64,000 bases of DNA from Chloroherpetonaceae bacterium. GTDB lineage: Bacteria; Bacteroidota; Chlorobiia; Chlorobiales; Chloroherpetonaceae. The notes beneath the pieces are model-generated. The model was given only the letters and a program-made list of their open reading frames with translations, was not told where the DNA came from and searched no databases. Positions 52,150 to 61,914 of this stretch are shown piece after piece (position 1 is the stretch's first letter; each line of letters begins with the position of its first letter). The stretch covers positions 62,001-126,000 of the forward strand of contig JANQGG010000006.1 of the NCBI GenBank assembly GCA_028277445.1, read 5' to 3'. The position numbers and the translations under genes are program-made.

Positions 52150-55100
52150 TTGAAGATAAAACGCATTAAGATCCGGACAGGCATAATTATAGCTTTTCTT
52201 GCGTTCTCAGTTTTTCATTCTTTTCAGGCATATACACAAAACATCCCCAATAACATTTTTCAAGAGAAATTCGCATCGGATATAAAGGTATTGGATTACG
52301 ATGAAACGGATTTAACGCTAACCTACAGCCCGCAATGGGTGAAGTTGTCTTATAGCGATTCATTATTTGATGCCAAAATACCAATGCGTTTGGTTAATGG
52401 CGACTATGAGTTGATCATGCCCGGCGCGCCGGTTATTCCGAAACGTGTGTTTCCGGTATGGTTAAAATCCTCTCGAGTGCCAAGTATTCAGGTGTTAAGT
52501 CATCAAACCCAAGCAATAGCTTTTCCAGGCGTTGGACTTGCGCCAAACTATGATTTTAAAACCAAGTCATGGAGACATGCCAAACAGCAAAAGCCGATTG
52601 GTAAAAAATGGCCGATGATTTCCATATCCGAACCAACGAAGTTTAGGGGGAAATGGCTAGCCTATATTACCATTTATCCGGTTCAAGTAAAGTCAGGAAA
52701 TCACACAGCCCAACTAACCAAGTCAATTACTTTTAAGTTAAGTTTTCATTCCTCCAAACACTCGAAATCAATATTTAAAAGCCAAGCCATAAAAACAGGA
52801 ATTGATGAGTTTCAACCAACGCTCGTCAACCAAGCACAATTAGAACTTTGGAAGCAATCGGGTGTTTTGGAGTCAACACGGCCAAAAAAGCAGGATTTGG
52901 TTTTTCAGCAGCAAAGCAGCGTGCTTGGTTCGGGAAAAGTCTATAAGCTTGGGTTTAAAAATGGCGGTTTCTATACGCTCACGAAGGCGTTTTTTGATTC
53001 GGTTGGTATTGATCTTTCCAATGTTGATCCCAGAAACATTCAACTGTTTTTTAATGGGGGAAACGAACTTAACACAAGCCTCTCGGCATTGGTTCAGGAC
53101 GATCTGCGAGAAATATGCATTCAAGTCGCCGGAGAAAGTGATGGCCGGTTCGATCCCGATGATAAAATTCGTTTTTATGTCAAAGGCCCACAAGGCGTAA
53201 GCTATGATGTACCAAAATACCCACCGCGTGTTAATCCTAGTGGCGACACTCAAAAACGATTAACGCATTATTTAAACCGGCAATCCAAGTTCAGTTATGC
53301 CTTTTTAAAATTTGGCAACGAGCCGGGAAAACGGCCCGAAAGTAAGTCATCTTTAAACGATCCGTCGCCTCATCAGCCTGATTCATTTACAAAGATGACG
53401 TTCGTTGAAAACGAGGTAAGAAATATATCCAACACAGGCATCGACTTGTTCGACGTGCCGTTAAACAGCAGCCGCCCGTCAATAACCACCACGTTTAGAT
53501 TGCATGGCCTGGCAACTTCCAAACCCATTCATGCACGCGTAAAAGCAGTGACTACTGGCCGAAATGAAACGATACAGCTAAAATTAAACGGCCAGTTGCT
53601 CGGCTCAAAAACAACCGGCAGCATTGGCGCTAGCGGATACCAAAAAGGGGAGTACTTTTTTTATGATGTCATAAAATCAAATTTTGATGCGATTTCCGAA
53701 ACGGTTGAGTTAGAGCTAACGCTGTTGCCAAATTCATTTTCATCGCAAACATACCCGGATTGGATGGAGTTGGCGTATCAATCCACATTTAACGCGGTTG
53801 GTGATGTGTTGGTATTTAATTCGTTGGTGGGATTAAGCTCAAGTAAGCCGGTGGCGTTTTCTATCGGTAATTTTTCAGCAACGCCAACCATTTGGGATAT
53901 CACGAACTTGTGGGATATTAAATCTATTGCCCCGATTTCTCAAACGTTGTCAAGCGCAAATTTTCAAAGTTTGTGCTCACCGGATTCAATGAATGAATTT
54001 TTAGCGTTTTCTGAAAACGCCGTTGAAAAACGTCCGCATTTGGTTGAAGCCTTGGCAAATCAAAATTTGCATGCCATCATTCCTGTGCCGTATATCATTA
54101 TATATCCACCTTCTTATGAAGCCGCCGCAAAACGGTTGCTTGAGCATCGTACAGGGAATGCATCAGGCGAGCCTTTGAGCGGAATAGCAGTGAATCAGGA
54201 TCAGGTATTTAATGAATTTTCGGGAGGCATGCCTGATTTTACGGCCATTCGAAATTTTGTCCGGTATCTCTATCAAAAGTCGGCCACAATTGGCAGCGCT
54301 CCAAAATATGTCGTGCTTTTTGGGGATGGGGATTGGGATGTAAAAAATGTTGTGAGCCCAAATTACGACAGGCTGTTAACGTATCAATCCGATGAAGTGC
54401 TACAACCCATAACGTCGGTAACATGCACAGACGATTTTTTTGTGGCAATTGATGGCGATATTGTCCCAACAAAAATGATTCCCGATTTAGCCATTGGGCG
54501 TTTAACCGCTCAAACACCCAATGAAGCTGAGCGGATGGTTGATAAAATCATTGCTTATGAAACAAACCAGGCGCAAGGTTTATGGCGCAATCGAGTGATT
54601 TTTGTGGCTGATGATGGCCTGAATGCCGGTACATCTGATGGCGCTCAATTCAGCGACGATAGTGAGCGAATCGTTCAAAGTTTACCGGAATGGATGCATC
54701 CCATAAAATTGTATTCGGCGTTTTATAAAGCGGATTTTTCATCGGGAAGTATGCGCCGGCCTGAAGCCTATCAGCAGATCATCAATCAGATTAATCAAGG
54801 GGCGTTGATTACAAATTTTATTGGACATGGCAATCCTTCGGTGTGGACGGCAGAGCGCATTTTTGAACCCGCCTCATCGTTACCCCTGTTGAACAATACC
54901 AACAAACTCACCATCGGTGTAACGGCCACCTGCGACTTTGGCCGCGCTGATGACCCGGTTTTCCGGAGCGGCGCCGAGCATATGCTACTTATGGAGAATG
55001 GCGGCGCTGTTGCCATGCTTACCACAACCCGGTCCATTTTTATTTCTACCGGAAGTAGCTATCCACCGATACTTTTCCAGGAGATTTTTCGTGAGAACGG

Positions 55101-56334
55101 TTCGGAAACGATCAGAAGGTTGGGGGATAGTTATACGGCATTTAAAGTTCAACGTGCCGGAGCTACGGATGCCACGAAATTTACATTGCTTGGCGATCCG
55201 GCCCTAATACTGCCTTTTGGGGATTTAAAGGCCGATCTGGATTCAATTCATGGCATTGCAAATGATGGGTTTAGAACGATTCAAATGAAGGCATTTGATA
55301 AAGTGAAGCTTTCAGGTACAATTCGAACCCAGAATAAAGTACCACTTTCGGATTTTTCCGGTACCATTGTTGCAGAGATTTATGACGTGCCGCAAGAACT
55401 TGGCGCTGATCATCAGGGCACAGGCCGCTTCGATCGTTACTACGCCGTTCAACAATCGCTTATATTTAATGGTGAGGCCACGGTGGCCAATGGACGTTTC
55501 GACCTAAGATTTATTGTCCCCAAATCCATTCAATACGATAGCTCGCAGAATGGGAAAATTCTGTTGCAAGCTTGGCCGGAAAGTCAGAGCGGGGGCTCAA
55601 AAACAGCGCCAGGCGCAACAACCAAGGTTATTTTTGCAGGTACCAACACCGATGTCCTTTTCGATGACCAAGGCCCAACCGTTGATGTCTATTTGGATGA
55701 TTTTTCGTTTCGCTCCGGTGATATAACCGGAACAGATCCTTTGTTTCTGGCTAAGCTCTCTGATGAAAACGGGATTAATTTAGCCAGTGGTTCGGTCAAT
55801 AACATGGTTTTGATACTGGATGATAACGAGCAGAATCCAATAGAACTCAGCAGTTATTATCAGTCCGAACCGAATAGTTTCACTGATGGCAAAATTCAAT
55901 ACCCTTTGAAAAATCTTTCCATTGGAAAACACACGTTGAAGTTCAAAGTATGGGACAATTTTAACAATTCTACCGAAACCTATCTCTATTTCACGGTTGA
56001 AAGCGATGAAAAACTCTCGTTTGGAGAGGTGTATAATTTCCCAAATCCGTTTAACCCAAAAAAGGATCGAAAGACGCGTTTTATCGTGCCTCAAAACAGA
56101 TCGGGTGATGATCTGGAAATTAAGTTGTCGATTTATACCGTTGCTGGTCGAAAAATCTATGAACAAAAACAGAGGGTTCTTAATGCGCCCTCACGATTAA
56201 TTTTGGAGTGGGATGGCAAAGATGATGTGGGTTCGGATATAGCAAACGGCGTGTATATCTATAAGATTCGTGTGAAAAGCTTTACAGAAAACTTTCAAAA
56301 AGAAGTTCTTGAAAAGCTGGTTATTTATAAATAA
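52150..56334 (+). CDS. porU: T9SS sortase PorU (gingipain-like, C25)
   Basis: 1394 residues starting at TTG with a signal peptide (IIAFLAFSVFHSFQAY). The long N-terminal region leads to a C25 peptidase domain (about 650-1050). The catalytic dyad is His 893 (NFIGHGNPSVW) and Cys 928 (ATCDFGRADD). The last 90 residues form an FlgD-like/T9SS C-terminal domain (NFPNPFNPKKDR, ANGVYIYKIRV). PorU cuts the CTD of T9SS cargo and attaches it to the surface. Followed by porV. Confidence 0.93.
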   Translation: MKIKRIKIRTGIIIAFLAFSVFHSFQAYTQNIPNNIFQEKFASDIKVLDYDETDLTLTYSPQWVKLSYSDSLFDAKIPMRLVNGDYELIMPGAPVIPKRVFPVWLKSSRVPSIQVLSHQTQAIAFPGVGLAPNYDFKTKSWRHAKQQKPIGKKWPMISISEPTKFRGKWLAYITIYPVQVKSGNHTAQLTKSITFKLSFHSSKHSKSIFKSQAIKTGIDEFQPTLVNQAQLELWKQSGVLESTRPKKQDLVFQQQSSVLGSGKVYKLGFKNGGFYTLTKAFFDSVGIDLSNVDPRNIQLFFNGGNELNTSLSALVQDDLREICIQVAGESDGRFDPDDKIRFYVKGPQGVSYDVPKYPPRVNPSGDTQKRLTHYLNRQSKFSYAFLKFGNEPGKRPESKSSLNDPSPHQPDSFTKMTFVENEVRNISNTGIDLFDVPLNSSRPSITTTFRLHGLATSKPIHARVKAVTTGRNETIQLKLNGQLLGSKTTGSIGASGYQKGEYFFYDVIKSNFDAISETVELELTLLPNSFSSQTYPDWMELAYQSTFNAVGDVLVFNSLVGLSSSKPVAFSIGNFSATPTIWDITNLWDIKSIAPISQTLSSANFQSLCSPDSMNEFLAFSENAVEKRPHLVEALANQNLHAIIPVPYIIIYPPSYEAAAKRLLEHRTGNASGEPLSGIAVNQDQVFNEFSGGMPDFTAIRNFVRYLYQKSATIGSAPKYVVLFGDGDWDVKNVVSPNYDRLLTYQSDEVLQPITSVTCTDDFFVAIDGDIVPTKMIPDLAIGRLTAQTPNEAERMVDKIIAYETNQAQGLWRNRVIFVADDGLNAGTSDGAQFSDDSERIVQSLPEWMHPIKLYSAFYKADFSSGSMRRPEAYQQIINQINQGALITNFIGHGNPSVWTAERIFEPASSLPLLNNTNKLTIGVTATCDFGRADDPVFRSGAEHMLLMENGGAVAMLTTTRSIFISTGSSYPPILFQEIFRENGSETIRRLGDSYTAFKVQRAGATDATKFTLLGDPALILPFGDLKADLDSIHGIANDGFRTIQMKAFDKVKLSGTIRTQNKVPLSDFSGTIVAEIYDVPQELGADHQGTGRFDRYYAVQQSLIFNGEATVANGRFDLRFIVPKSIQYDSSQNGKILLQAWPESQSGGSKTAPGATTKVIFAGTNTDVLFDDQGPTVDVYLDDFSFRSGDITGTDPLFLAKLSDENGINLASGSVNNMVLILDDNEQNPIELSSYYQSEPNSFTDGKIQYPLKNLSIGKHTLKFKVWDNFNNSTETYLYFTVESDEKLSFGEVYNFPNPFNPKKDRKTRFIVPQNRSGDDLEIKLSIYTVAGRKIYEQKQRVLNAPSRLILEWDGKDDVGSDIANGVYIYKIRVKSFTENFQKEVLEKLVIYK

Positions 56335-56465
56335 GGTGATTTTATTTAATTATTAGGGATAAGATTATGGTTTGGTTTTCTTGTAAAACTAATCCTATAT
56401 TCGTGTTCAATTTTTCAAGACAAAGTATTATTTGTTTTCAATGTAAACGACAAAACTTTGAGTTT

Positions 56466-57566
56466 ATGAATTTTTCGATGAAAGCAGTTCTTGTTTTAGG
56501 TTTGATTGGGTTGAATTTGGTATGGAACAATGTGTTACAAGCGCAGAATACGATAACAACAGCAGTGCCATTTTTATTGATTTCTCCGGATACTCGCGCA
56601 AATGGTATGGGTGAGGCAAATGTTGCCATTGCCGATAATGCCAATGCCATGTTTTGGAATCCGGCAGGGTTAGGTTACCAAAGAGGTTTTGATGTAAGTT
56701 TAACACATACCAATTGGCTGCCGGCATTTAATGCAGATTTGTTTTACGATAATGTATCGGCAAAGTATCACTTGCCAGGGTATGGTACCTTTGCGTTGGG
56801 GATTACCTACTTAAATTTAGGTGAAAGTGAATATACAGATGATAAGGGTCAATCAAAAGGAATATTTAAAAGTTATGAGTTTGCTGTAGCGATTGCCTAT
56901 GGCGTTCGGATTCACCGGTTTCTTGCAGTTGGCACATCCATTCGTTACATTCACAGCTCACTTACGCCCTCGAGTGTTAAGGTTGGGCAGGAAGAAGGTT
57001 CAGGGAAAGGAAGTTCAATCTCGTTTGATATGGCTGCTATGTTCAGACCGGTCTTTAAAGGGTATCTCGCCGACAGGTTGAGTTTAGGTATTAATATTTC
57101 TAACATAGGGCCTAAAATGACCTACTTTGATGAAGCGCAAGCCGATCCGTTGCCAACAAATTTAAAATTTGGCGCTGCGTTTCGTGCTTACAACGATGAC
57201 TTTAATAAACTCACCGTTGCCTTGGATTTCAACAAGCTACTGGTTAAACGCAATGATGATGGAGACGCAGAAGGTGTGCTTTCCGCAATGTTTTCATCCT
57301 GGGGTGATGGTTTTGAAACCATTAATGTTGGCCTCGGCGCAGAATACTGGTATGGTAGACCATCCCTGTTTGCTATACGTGGGGGATATTTTTACGAAGA
57401 TCCAGATTACGGTGGTCGTGAATACTGGACGTTTGGCGTTGGGGTTCGTGTCTTTAAATTTGGCGTAGATTTTAGTTATTTAAGCGCTTTAGAAGAGGAT
57501 CACCCATTGGATGGAACGGTTCGTTTTTCGCTTGCCTATTACGTGCCAACGGCGGGTTTAAGATAA
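56466..57566 (+). CDS. porV: T9SS outer-membrane protein PorV
   Basis: Barrel shuttle that carries CTD cargo from the translocon to PorU. I take ATG 56466 (or 56478), where a signal peptide begins (LVLGLIGLNLVWNNVLQAQ); the frame to 56367 adds an unlikely leader. Family pattern: TAVPFLLISPDTRANGMGEANVAIADNANAMFWNPAGL. The rest is barrel-like to the end (VRFSLAYYVPTAGLR). It lies 131 bases after porU; this pairing is typical of T9SS genomes. Confidence 0.93.
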   Translation: MNFSMKAVLVLGLIGLNLVWNNVLQAQNTITTAVPFLLISPDTRANGMGEANVAIADNANAMFWNPAGLGYQRGFDVSLTHTNWLPAFNADLFYDNVSAKYHLPGYGTFALGITYLNLGESEYTDDKGQSKGIFKSYEFAVAIAYGVRIHRFLAVGTSIRYIHSSLTPSSVKVGQEEGSGKGSSISFDMAAMFRPVFKGYLADRLSLGINISNIGPKMTYFDEAQADPLPTNLKFGAAFRAYNDDFNKLTVALDFNKLLVKRNDDGDAEGVLSAMFSSWGDGFETINVGLGAEYWYGRPSLFAIRGGYFYEDPDYGGREYWTFGVGVRVFKFGVDFSYLSALEEDHPLDGTVRFSLAYYVPTAGLR

Positions 57567-57719
57567 TCTAAGTTTCAGATTTAGAAAGAAGCTGCTTCTT
57601 AGGTAAAGTTTTTAGCGGCTTTTATAAACTCCTATTACCATAATGTTAAAGCTGCTTCTTTCAATTCAATGTTGGTTATTTTGCATCTGTTCTGGTTTGC
57701 ATTCAATTTGAAAAGATTT

Positions 57720-60700
57720 ATGCCCAAAGCCTTTTCCTTTGTGTTTTTTCTTAACCTCGTAGTTGGTTTGCTGTGCAATCCACAATTTGTCTTTGCGCAA
57801 ACCAAGTCGTTTAAGCCCACATTATCTCACAGAATTTCACCTGATCAATCAGCGCCCAGATCATTTTCAAGGCCTTATGTGTTGGCCGACCCGATCAAGA
57901 TATTAGCCGTTCGTGTTGAATTTCAAACGGATGACGATTCAAAAACTTCCGGTAATGGTCTGTTTGACGGATTGGATTATTTGGCCGATTATGGCGAAGA
58001 TATCATTGATCCATTGCCCCACGATAAAGCATATTTTGAGCGTAAGCTTGAGTTTTTGAAGCATTACTTCGAAAGCACCAGCCAAGGTAAAGTCGCTATT
58101 AACTATACTGTTTCCGACAGCATTTACACTTTATCCAAAATCATGAGCGCATATTCGCCCTCCAAAAAAAGTGATGATTTAACCCTTTTGGCGGAGATGG
58201 TTCAGGAAACCTGGCAATTGGTTGATCAACTCTCGCCGGATATTCAATTTTCGGATTACGATTGTTTTGTGATTTTTCATGCCGGCGTAGGACGTGATAT
58301 TGATCTGGTTTCATCAATTGGCGTTGATCCAACCCCTTTTGATCTTCCTTCCATCACTTTTAATCTCAACAGTTTGCAGGATGTTTTTGGCCAGTCTTTT
58401 CAAGGGTTTTCTGTGGATAACGGCCAAACGCTGATCGATCATACGTTGATTTTGCCACAAACCGAATCGCGAGAGATAGATGCTATCGGCGGCGATATCC
58501 TTCAGGAAATTTCCATCAACGGGCTGCTTTGTGCAAGTTTTGGCAGTTATTTAGGTTTGCCGGATTTGTTTAACACCTCAAACGGGCGCAGTGGTATCGG
58601 GCGATTCGGGTTAATGGATGGCGAAGGATTTTTTAATTATTACGGGCTTTTGCCACCGGCGCCATCAGCCTGGGAGCGAATTGAACTGGGTTGGGCAACG
58701 CCTAAGGTGGTTCAGCTATCCGGTGAAACTACTCTCTCGCTGCCAGCCCTTGGTTTGGATCAACATCCCGACTCGGTAATCCTAAAAATTCCCATTACAT
58801 CAGATGAGTACTTTTTGGTGGAAAACCGTCAAAGAAATCCCAAAAACGCCGGAGTAACCCTTACTCAGTATTTCAAAGGTTCAACCCTTCAGATCACATT
58901 TACAGAAGATGAGGATGGCTTTGCAAGCTTCAGCATTGATAGCCTTAAAGGAGATATTGTGGCCAGTTCCAATTACGACTGGGCATTGCCCGGCGGAGAA
59001 ATCCTGAAAGAAAATGGTGAACGCATTGAGGTTCAGGGCGGTATTTTGATTTGGCACATTGATGAAAACATCATCCGAAATAAGCGAGCCTCTAATGGCA
59101 TTAATTCGGGTGAGCCAAAAGGCATCAGACTTTTGGAAGCTGATGGCTCAAACGACATTGGCGAAAACTATGGATTCACCGATGCCGGTTACGGCTCGGA
59201 ATCTGGTACGCCATTGGATTATTTTTACCTGGGTAATCCCTCGCCAATTTATGAAAACCACATTGATGATGAAACATACCCGAATACCAGCGCCAATTCC
59301 GGCGCTAAGTCAAATTTGGCGCTTTATGGATTTTCATCGTCGCAGGCGGTCATGGAAATGAGACTCTCCAGAGAGACGATAGGTATAGAATCGTTGGATG
59401 GTTTTCCGGTGCAATTGAATGATGAATTTGGTCCGGGCTCGGCAATTTCAGTTTATACCGATGCCATAACAAAAGCCAAAGCGCTTCTTATTAATAGTGA
59501 TTCAAATAACGTGCATTTGGTTTATTCCGGCACGCCGTTTGGTTTATCGGATGCTTTGCCTGGGGTGGCAATTTCATCACAAAAAGCGGCCATAGGAAGC
59601 GATGGATCAATATACACGGTCTTAGACAGCACACTATATTGGTTTAAAGGATCGGATACCGATGCTTTAAATTTAGGCAATCGGATTACCACTCCGCCGG
59701 TTGTGCAGGGGAATAGTATAAAAGTATGCGACTTAGGTGGAAAAGTGATCTCGGTTTCTGTTCAAGGTAATCTATTGCAAAAGCAAGGGCAAGAGCAACT
59801 GACATCGGGAGAACAGATCCTGGGATTTGCCGGCAATCTCGTCTTTTCAGATCAAACGGTTTTCAGAGGCGCCCAGCAATGGAATTGTTCACCTTACACT
59901 ATTCATCGGTTTGCGGCTACCGGGAAAACCGAAGGATGGCTTGGGGCTGCGATTACAACAACGAATGATCTTATATATTTTTTCGCGGATGGCTCAAAAA
60001 AAATCACCAAACTTTCAAAACAGGACACCATTAAAAGCTGGCCGGTATTTGCAGATTTGGAGCATCGAGGCGAGCTATCGGTCATTTTTCCAATCGGCCA
60101 AACCATTTATGCTTATAATGAAGCTCAATTTTTGCTCTCAAATTTCCCCATAAATACGCGTTCTGAAAACCCAATTATGGCAACGCCTCTCATTGCCGAT
60201 GTTGATGGGGATACCTTTGAAGATGTTCTGATGATGCTTCCAAATGGCACATTGGCTGTTTATAACCGATTTGGTAAAGACGTTACCAATTTTGCGTTGT
60301 CCGAGAACTCTCAATCAACGCCGGCCATTACAACCTTGCAAAATGGCAATCTTGGCTTATTTGTTGTTGATCGAGGGGGATTGATGCAAGGATGGCGTTT
60401 GAAAACAGCAACCCAAAATATTCAGTGGGGCGAGCAGTTTTCGGGATCAGCCAATTTGAACAGCTACGATCCCAAAGAAAGTAACGGACGTGTTGAGTTG
60501 TCATTTCAAGCGTTGATGCCTGCAAAGCGCGTGTTTAATTGGCCAAATCCAGCTAGAGAAGAAACTCGGTTTCGGTTTTATTTAACCGAAGATGCAAAAG
60601 TTGAGTTGAGCGTATATGATTTAACCGGACAAGCGGTTTGGGGGAAAACGGTTCAGGGGCAAGCCGGTCTCGATAATGAAGTATTATGGAATCTAAACTC

Positions 60701-60791
60701 AATGGCCAGCGGCGTCTATTACGGCGTGGTTAAAGCCATTGGAAAATCTAAAACCGAACAGGTAAAACTGAAAATTGCAATAGTCAAGTAA
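57720..60791 (+). CDS. M6-like protein with T9SS sorting domain, zinc motif lost
   Basis: About 1023 residues. ATG 57720 gives a signal peptide ending at FVFAQ; the frame to 57669 adds a leader. The N-terminal half is related to immune-inhibitor-A/M6 metalloproteases (LKHYFESTSQGKVAINY, YLGLPDLFNTSNGRSGIGRFGLMDG). Where the family has HEFGH, the sequence reads ASFGS (residues 272-276), so zinc binding is very unlikely. A propeller-like part with FG-GAP-like VDGDTFEDVLMML follows. The last 85 residues form a type-A CTD (WPNPAREETRF, YDLTGQAVWG, SGVYYGVVKA). It is presumably exported by T9SS. It follows porV in the same direction. Confidence 0.82.
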   Translation: MPKAFSFVFFLNLVVGLLCNPQFVFAQTKSFKPTLSHRISPDQSAPRSFSRPYVLADPIKILAVRVEFQTDDDSKTSGNGLFDGLDYLADYGEDIIDPLPHDKAYFERKLEFLKHYFESTSQGKVAINYTVSDSIYTLSKIMSAYSPSKKSDDLTLLAEMVQETWQLVDQLSPDIQFSDYDCFVIFHAGVGRDIDLVSSIGVDPTPFDLPSITFNLNSLQDVFGQSFQGFSVDNGQTLIDHTLILPQTESREIDAIGGDILQEISINGLLCASFGSYLGLPDLFNTSNGRSGIGRFGLMDGEGFFNYYGLLPPAPSAWERIELGWATPKVVQLSGETTLSLPALGLDQHPDSVILKIPITSDEYFLVENRQRNPKNAGVTLTQYFKGSTLQITFTEDEDGFASFSIDSLKGDIVASSNYDWALPGGEILKENGERIEVQGGILIWHIDENIIRNKRASNGINSGEPKGIRLLEADGSNDIGENYGFTDAGYGSESGTPLDYFYLGNPSPIYENHIDDETYPNTSANSGAKSNLALYGFSSSQAVMEMRLSRETIGIESLDGFPVQLNDEFGPGSAISVYTDAITKAKALLINSDSNNVHLVYSGTPFGLSDALPGVAISSQKAAIGSDGSIYTVLDSTLYWFKGSDTDALNLGNRITTPPVVQGNSIKVCDLGGKVISVSVQGNLLQKQGQEQLTSGEQILGFAGNLVFSDQTVFRGAQQWNCSPYTIHRFAATGKTEGWLGAAITTTNDLIYFFADGSKKITKLSKQDTIKSWPVFADLEHRGELSVIFPIGQTIYAYNEAQFLLSNFPINTRSENPIMATPLIADVDGDTFEDVLMMLPNGTLAVYNRFGKDVTNFALSENSQSTPAITTLQNGNLGLFVVDRGGLMQGWRLKTATQNIQWGEQFSGSANLNSYDPKESNGRVELSFQALMPAKRVFNWPNPAREETRFRFYLTEDAKVELSVYDLTGQAVWGKTVQGQAGLDNEVLWNLNSMASGVYYGVVKAIGKSKTEQVKLKIAIVK

Positions 60792-61497: not shown

Positions 61498-61914
61498 TTA
61501 TATAATATCTTCAAATTCCTTGATCGTTATAATTTTGGTATTTTTATACTCTCCGATAATAAGCAAATCATTATCACTTGAAATTAAATAATCAGCATTG
61601 CTTTTTTCAGAAAGAGCCAAAAGAAAATTATCCTTTGGGTCTTTACAAATTTTTGGTTCTTTGGTTATGGTTATAATTTTACCAATAGAAAAAATTAAGT
61701 CAATCAAATCAGCAACATCTTTAGAATCAAAATACTTTTTGAATTTTGGTCGTTCTGTTACCATTTTTAATTCATCAATATTTTGCTTAGAAAATATTAA
61801 TTGTACTTTTGAATGAACTAAATGATGTTTTAATCTTGCTAATTTCTTTCCAATTAAAAAGCTTATAAAAAGATTTGTATCAATGATGATTTTAATTTTC
61901 TTTTTTCTTGGCAT
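61498..61914 (-). CDS. PIN-domain toxin, COG1569 type
   Basis: 138 residues with the PIN acidic set: DTNLFISF at the N-terminus, a central Glu in IDELKMV, DPKDNFLLALSE and SSDNDLL. COG1569 proteins are RNases of type II toxin-antitoxin systems. Its ATG lies inside the end of the upstream antitoxin gene (23-base overlap), the usual coupled arrangement. Base composition is clearly more AT-rich than neighbouring genes, suggesting acquisition. Confidence 0.85.
   Translation of the reverse strand: MPRKKKIKIIIDTNLFISFLIGKKLARLKHHLVHSKVQLIFSKQNIDELKMVTERPKFKKYFDSKDVADLIDLIFSIGKIITITKEPKICKDPKDNFLLALSEKSNADYLISSDNDLLIIGEYKNTKIITIKEFEDII

Follow-up and report, generated by a model that had tools for sequence, protein, structure and literature searches.

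The question raised by this locus is what a metalloprotease that appears to have lost its catalytic residues is doing among the genes of the type IX secretion system (T9SS). The window, by which we mean the whole 64,000-nucleotide stretch of the Chloroherpetonaceae genome analyzed here, encodes such a protein immediately after the genes for the sortase PorU and the outer-membrane shuttle protein PorV. We asked whether the active site is really lost, whether the loss is shared by relatives, and which role best fits the gene's conservation and surroundings.

Architecture and family of the M6-like protein

The translation of the M6-like reading frame contains SINGLLCASFGSYLGLPDLFNTSNGRSGIGRFGLMDGEG. 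Translation more likely begins at the ATG at 57720 (aa 18), which lies ahead of a probable signal peptide (Table 1). The gene begins about 100 to 150 bp 3' of porV, without overlap. Other genes seen in the window include one for PucC and, at 61498-61914 on the minus strand, one for a PIN-domain protein (PF13470) that is possibly the toxin of a toxin-antitoxin pair.

The protein is a further member of a family already catalogued in NCBIfam as NF052323, "T9SS-dependent M6-like inactivated metalloprotease," which it matches at 827.9 bits (cut-off 600) across positions 24 to 1043 of the 1,043-position model. The description line of this entry names the family and gives no function, and in the open-access literature we found no paper on the function of the family or on an inactivated metalloprotease or pseudoprotease in the T9SS.

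Profiles for M6 peptidases recognize the protein as related, below their cut-offs (TIGR03296, E of 3e-17 and 63.4 bits against 110.8; PF05547, 17.4 bits against 22). AlphaFold modeled the mature protein with a pLDDT of 91.2 and a pTM of 0.87. Because the best 50 Foldseek matches of this full-length model were all propeller-type proteins, the N-terminal region was folded separately. Modeled alone, these 500 residues gave three significant matches in the PDB, all of them InhA2 (4YU5/4YU6), with E of about 1e-11; on this model, the fold of the N-terminal region is that of the M6 family. The middle third is predicted to form a beta-propeller, and two of its Foldseek matches, Cake8 and Cake9, are designed propellers.

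A PDB sequence search with the single window protein gave no match, and a PDB profile search retrieved propellers and, apart from these, only one weak match, to the sorting domain of the 84-kD antigen PG93 (entry 5M11), which we take to be PorZ. The profile for the N-terminal propeller of PorZ (PF21544) had no match in the M6-like protein at E<=1. At the C terminus, the sorting domain (CTD) for type IX export that the original prediction had described was recovered by two profiles, both above cut-off.

Table 1. Coordinates of the M6-like gene, its parts, and its neighbors
Feature	Coordinates	Strand	Description and basis
porU	52150..56334	+	T9SS sortase (Peptidase_C25), 1394 aa; NF033707, 928 bits (cut-off 420); PF01364, E 4e-91
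porV	56367..57566	+	T9SS outer-membrane shuttle protein; NF033710, 275 bits (cut-off 250); PF19572
M6-like inactivated protease	57669..60791	+	NF052323; 1040 aa
Probable Sec signal peptide MPKAFSFVFFLNLVVGLLCNPQFVFAQ	57720..57800	+	Read by eye from the sequence, no dedicated predictor
M6-fold region, catalytically dead M6-like domain	57864..59363	+	aa 66-565; AlphaFold pLDDT 91.7, pTM 0.92; Foldseek, InhA2
ASFGS replacing HExxH	58533..58547	+	aa 289-293; alignment with intact M6 proteins
Retained active-site surroundings YLGLPDLFNT...GIGRFGLMDGEGFFN	58548..58640	+	aa 294-324, including Gly296, Asp299, and Met316
Predicted beta-propeller	59436..60488	+	About aa 590-940, middle third; AlphaFold; Foldseek to Cake8/Cake9 and BamB; sequence poorly conserved
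Type A T9SS C-terminal sorting domain	60540..60788	+	aa 958-1040; PF18962, E 3e-8, 34.2 bits (cut-off 27); TIGR04183, 33.8 bits (cut-off 23)
Peptidase-MA/TolB-type protein, ~1100 aa	L160:2255-5527, L163:14698-18066, L076:13078-16419, and equivalents		Next gene after the M6-like gene in PorU-less Balneolaceae

Loss and conservation of the active site

Intact M6 proteins from related genomes carry HEFGHMLGLPD, HEYGHALGLPD, or HELGHVFGLPD at the aligned site, and in this alignment A289, S290, and S293 fall exactly on the H, E, and H positions. Neither zinc-binding histidine is left, nor is the catalytic glutamate; the Asp of LPD (Asp299, which aligns with the Asp of HExxHxxGLPD) and the Met of the following GLMDG are retained. 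It had been claimed that within 58503-58560 HEFGH is replaced by ASFGS while LGLPDL and its surroundings are kept, and the alignment bears this out. A scan of the whole window protein found no second HExxH, and the His/Glu/His triplet is retained in none of the 107 orthologues aligned from Chlorobia, Ignavibacteria, and Balneolaceae, so that the idea of a pseudoprotease beside PorU and PorV survived both searches. A single orthologue (L090) does contain an HExxH string (HEMAH, aa 139), in an unrelated and unconserved place. Across the 107 sequences, the substitutes are mostly Ala/Ser/Gly for the first His, Ser/Gln/Asn/Thr/Met for the Glu, and Ser/Asn for the second His.

Despite the lost triplet, the pattern NG...LGLPDLFNT...GIGRFGLMDG is nearly invariant among the orthologues. 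Asn284, Gly285, Gly296, Pro298, and Leu300 never vary, the third-ligand-like Asp299 is retained in 105 of 107, and Met316 in 100 of 107; His204 and His463 are conserved as well. Of all 50-aa blocks in the protein, the one at the dead site is the most conserved (0.82); the orthologues were partly fetched with peptide patterns that include the conserved motif, and the subset found by HMM/BLAST, which is independent of those patterns, agrees (0.87). Conservation is 0.59 over the M6 part versus 0.29 over the propeller, and in the close pairs for which dN/dS could be computed, its value for aa 270-345 was 0 to 0.03, below that of the propeller.

In a tree of M6 domains, active and inactive members split across one branch with a local support of 0.98, which fits one ancient catalytic loss. 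Since the loss is common to the whole family, the split falls on one branch, and the dead site is conserved under purifying selection with low dN/dS, we set aside recent decay of an active gene, and likewise sequencing error, as explanations. To judge from its sequence conservation, the dead site has some function. Conceivably, the protein has kept some peptidase activity that relies on another metal site or another nucleophile, as the persistence of Asp299 and Met316 may mean that the geometry of the site is retained. However, both histidines and the glutamate base are gone in every member, mostly in favor of small or polar residues, and we consider residual activity very improbable.

Linkage to porV and co-occurrence with T9SS genes

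The M6-like family was found in 151 of 395 sampled Bacteroidota genomes, usually as one copy per genome. In 69 of the 70 loci with room to tell, porV lies directly upstream of the M6-like gene, often overlapping it or only a few bases away; the remaining locus (L042, in G015) has porV elsewhere. At that locus, the preceding gene reads in translation as an LptF/LptG-like permease. Further upstream, porU was present in 46 of 50 loci with enough room, the four exceptions belonging to the PorU-less lineage discussed below. By a tally made by eye across match lists, PorU accompanies the M6-like gene in 135 of the 151 genomes and PorZ (E<=0.001) in 134; SprA was present in all 21 genomes checked. 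Chlorobiaceae, which are without PorU and PorZ, are also without the M6-like gene.

Arrangements do vary. A sister genome of the same family (G001:C1:2581185-2588884) has porU inverted and converging on the porV-M6-like pair, with the porV link kept. The window's own genome holds eight PorV-family matches at E<=1e-10 and, at G000:C68:17143-21701, a second Peptidase_C25 protein (a 1,866-aa frame) with a PorV-family gene after it; the two may be the pair that NCBIfam calls PorU2/PorV2.

These distributions bear on two further explanations. The M6-like protein might replace PorZ where PorZ is missing, given that propellers and a sorting domain occur in both proteins and that each is linked to surface components of the T9SS. 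However, PorZ accompanies the M6-like gene in the great majority of genomes (see the tally above), which largely refutes replacement, and because it is also encoded in the window's genome (G000:C36:61587; 62 bits), the M6-like protein is not a PorZ substitute; we find the idea scarcely credible. Alternatively, the protein could be a structural partner or cofactor specific to the PorU sortase, either a pseudoenzyme activator or a substrate-presenting subunit, as the usual upstream position of porU and the joint presence of both genes would allow. Against this, the M6-like gene was not found in 128 of 263 PorU-bearing genomes, from which it follows that many T9SSs work without it, and G005 carries porU and the M6-like gene on two separate contigs (C10 and C14). 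PorU-less genomes that keep the M6-like gene weigh in the same direction, and we regard a PorU-specific partner as improbable.

PorU-less Balneolaceae

Sixteen genomes have the M6-like gene beside porV and no detectable PorU (G087, G102, G122, G130, G177, G209, G240, G272, G279, G308, G324, G338, G350, G366, G370, and G374; loci L160 to L168). All carry the family label f18 and probably belong to Balneolaceae. Peptidase_C25 had no match at all in these genomes, and 15 of the 16 were also without PorZ. SprA, PorV, and between 5 and 32 sorting-domain proteins are retained in them; as such, the 16 represent a T9SS without a known sortase. Because they keep the porV-M6-like pair, the M6-like protein would be tied functionally to PorV and not to the sortase.

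PorU2 was considered for the next gene downstream in this lineage and rejected, as the gene encodes a conserved protein of about 1,100 aa that combines a peptidase-MA-like region with a TolB-type propeller. Next come a protein of about 320 aa without an NCBIfam match and then a PASTA-type protein.

Proposed role

Taken together, we propose with moderate confidence that the M6-like protein is a surface-exposed, noncatalytic component of the T9SS, docked on PorV, whose dead cleft serves for binding. It would be produced together with PorV, and usually with PorU as well, would leave the cell through the T9SS via its own C-terminal sorting domain, and would stay attached to PorV at the outer surface, an arrangement known for PorU in Porphyromonas gingivalis. 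The M6-fold cleft, no longer able to hold zinc in the usual way, would then bind a peptide or another protein. The simplest candidates would be incoming cargo or the sorting domain that it carries, or else a further protein of the attachment complex, and this binding may assist in the transfer, retention, or release of cargo.

PorV of P. gingivalis gathers secreted cargo and serves as the anchor for PorU, and PorZ is anchored by PorQ (PMC5562754), and PorA, PorU, and PorZ are secreted components that retain their sorting domain (PMC11285876). By analogy with these proteins we infer docking on PorV at the surface, and we likewise infer that the M6-like protein keeps its own sorting domain, what its ligand is, and which step it serves. 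Its sorting domain is of the ordinary cargo type, and we found no feature in it that proves retention after export. Gene order, moreover, can arise because a favored cargo is co-expressed, with no physical complex involved.

Alternatively, the protein could be an ordinary T9SS cargo, such as a surface adhesin or carbohydrate-binding protein, with a propeller that binds outside ligands, an M6 part that serves as scaffold, and a place beside porV that ensures co-expression. Its type A sorting domain is shared with dozens of other proteins of the same genome (35 matches), and its propeller resembles FG-GAP/lectin-type propellers (PVL lectin and a secreted esterase) in weak profile matches. Adhesins, however, are usually variable and mobile in position, and this gene is usually single copy and fixed beside porV over several classes. 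We thus consider ordinary cargo possible but rather unlikely. The original prediction that the protein may have become a surface adhesin or a binding protein fares differently in its two halves. Binding gains support, as the dead site is the best-conserved part and is under strong purifying selection. The adhesin half is weakened by the fixed place next to porV, by persistence without PorU, and by the fact that the conserved part is the M6-like core, while the propeller varies. The pattern of sequence conservation and linkage appears more in keeping with a part of the machine than with an adhesin, and a free adhesin seems less likely than a PorV-docked component.

A more far-reaching version of the PorV-docked component, which we offer tentatively and regard as doubtful, is that PorV and the M6-like protein form the core of an alternative mode of cargo handling. 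In the PorU-less Balneolaceae, the pair alone would capture sorting domains and hold or release proteins uncleaved, and in Chlorobia and Ignavibacteria it would work alongside PorU.

Implications and comparison with known systems

Detailed dissection of the T9SS has concentrated on Bacteroidia (P. gingivalis and Flavobacterium). A conserved, PorV-linked part with the distribution described here does not figure among the T9SS components in the open-access papers searched, and because it lies outside them, the T9SS may be organized differently in deeper branches. How a T9SS that has cargo signals and no known sortase finishes export can be put to a sharp test in the PorU-less genomes with the M6-like gene, and the family as a whole illustrates cleanly how an enzyme fold can stay under strong selection after catalytic loss.

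The closest known relatives are the other members of NF052323, with which the window protein shares architecture, active-site loss, and sorting domain, so that nothing essential differs; it is a divergent member, and the best-scoring Balneolaceae proteins reach 1,455 bits. InhA2 (immune inhibitor A, peptidase family M6) resembles it in the N-terminal fold, in the LGLPD motif, and in the G...LM surroundings that follow, but the window protein is without HExxH, and a propeller and a T9SS sorting domain replace the accessory domains of InhA. PorU and PorZ of the P. gingivalis attachment complex are surface T9SS components tied to PorV or PorQ, and the window protein shares their possession of a sorting domain. 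PorU, however, is a C25 sortase, which the window protein is not, and PorZ, although it has beta-propellers as the window protein does, consists of two of them without an M6 domain and occurs in addition to the M6-like protein.
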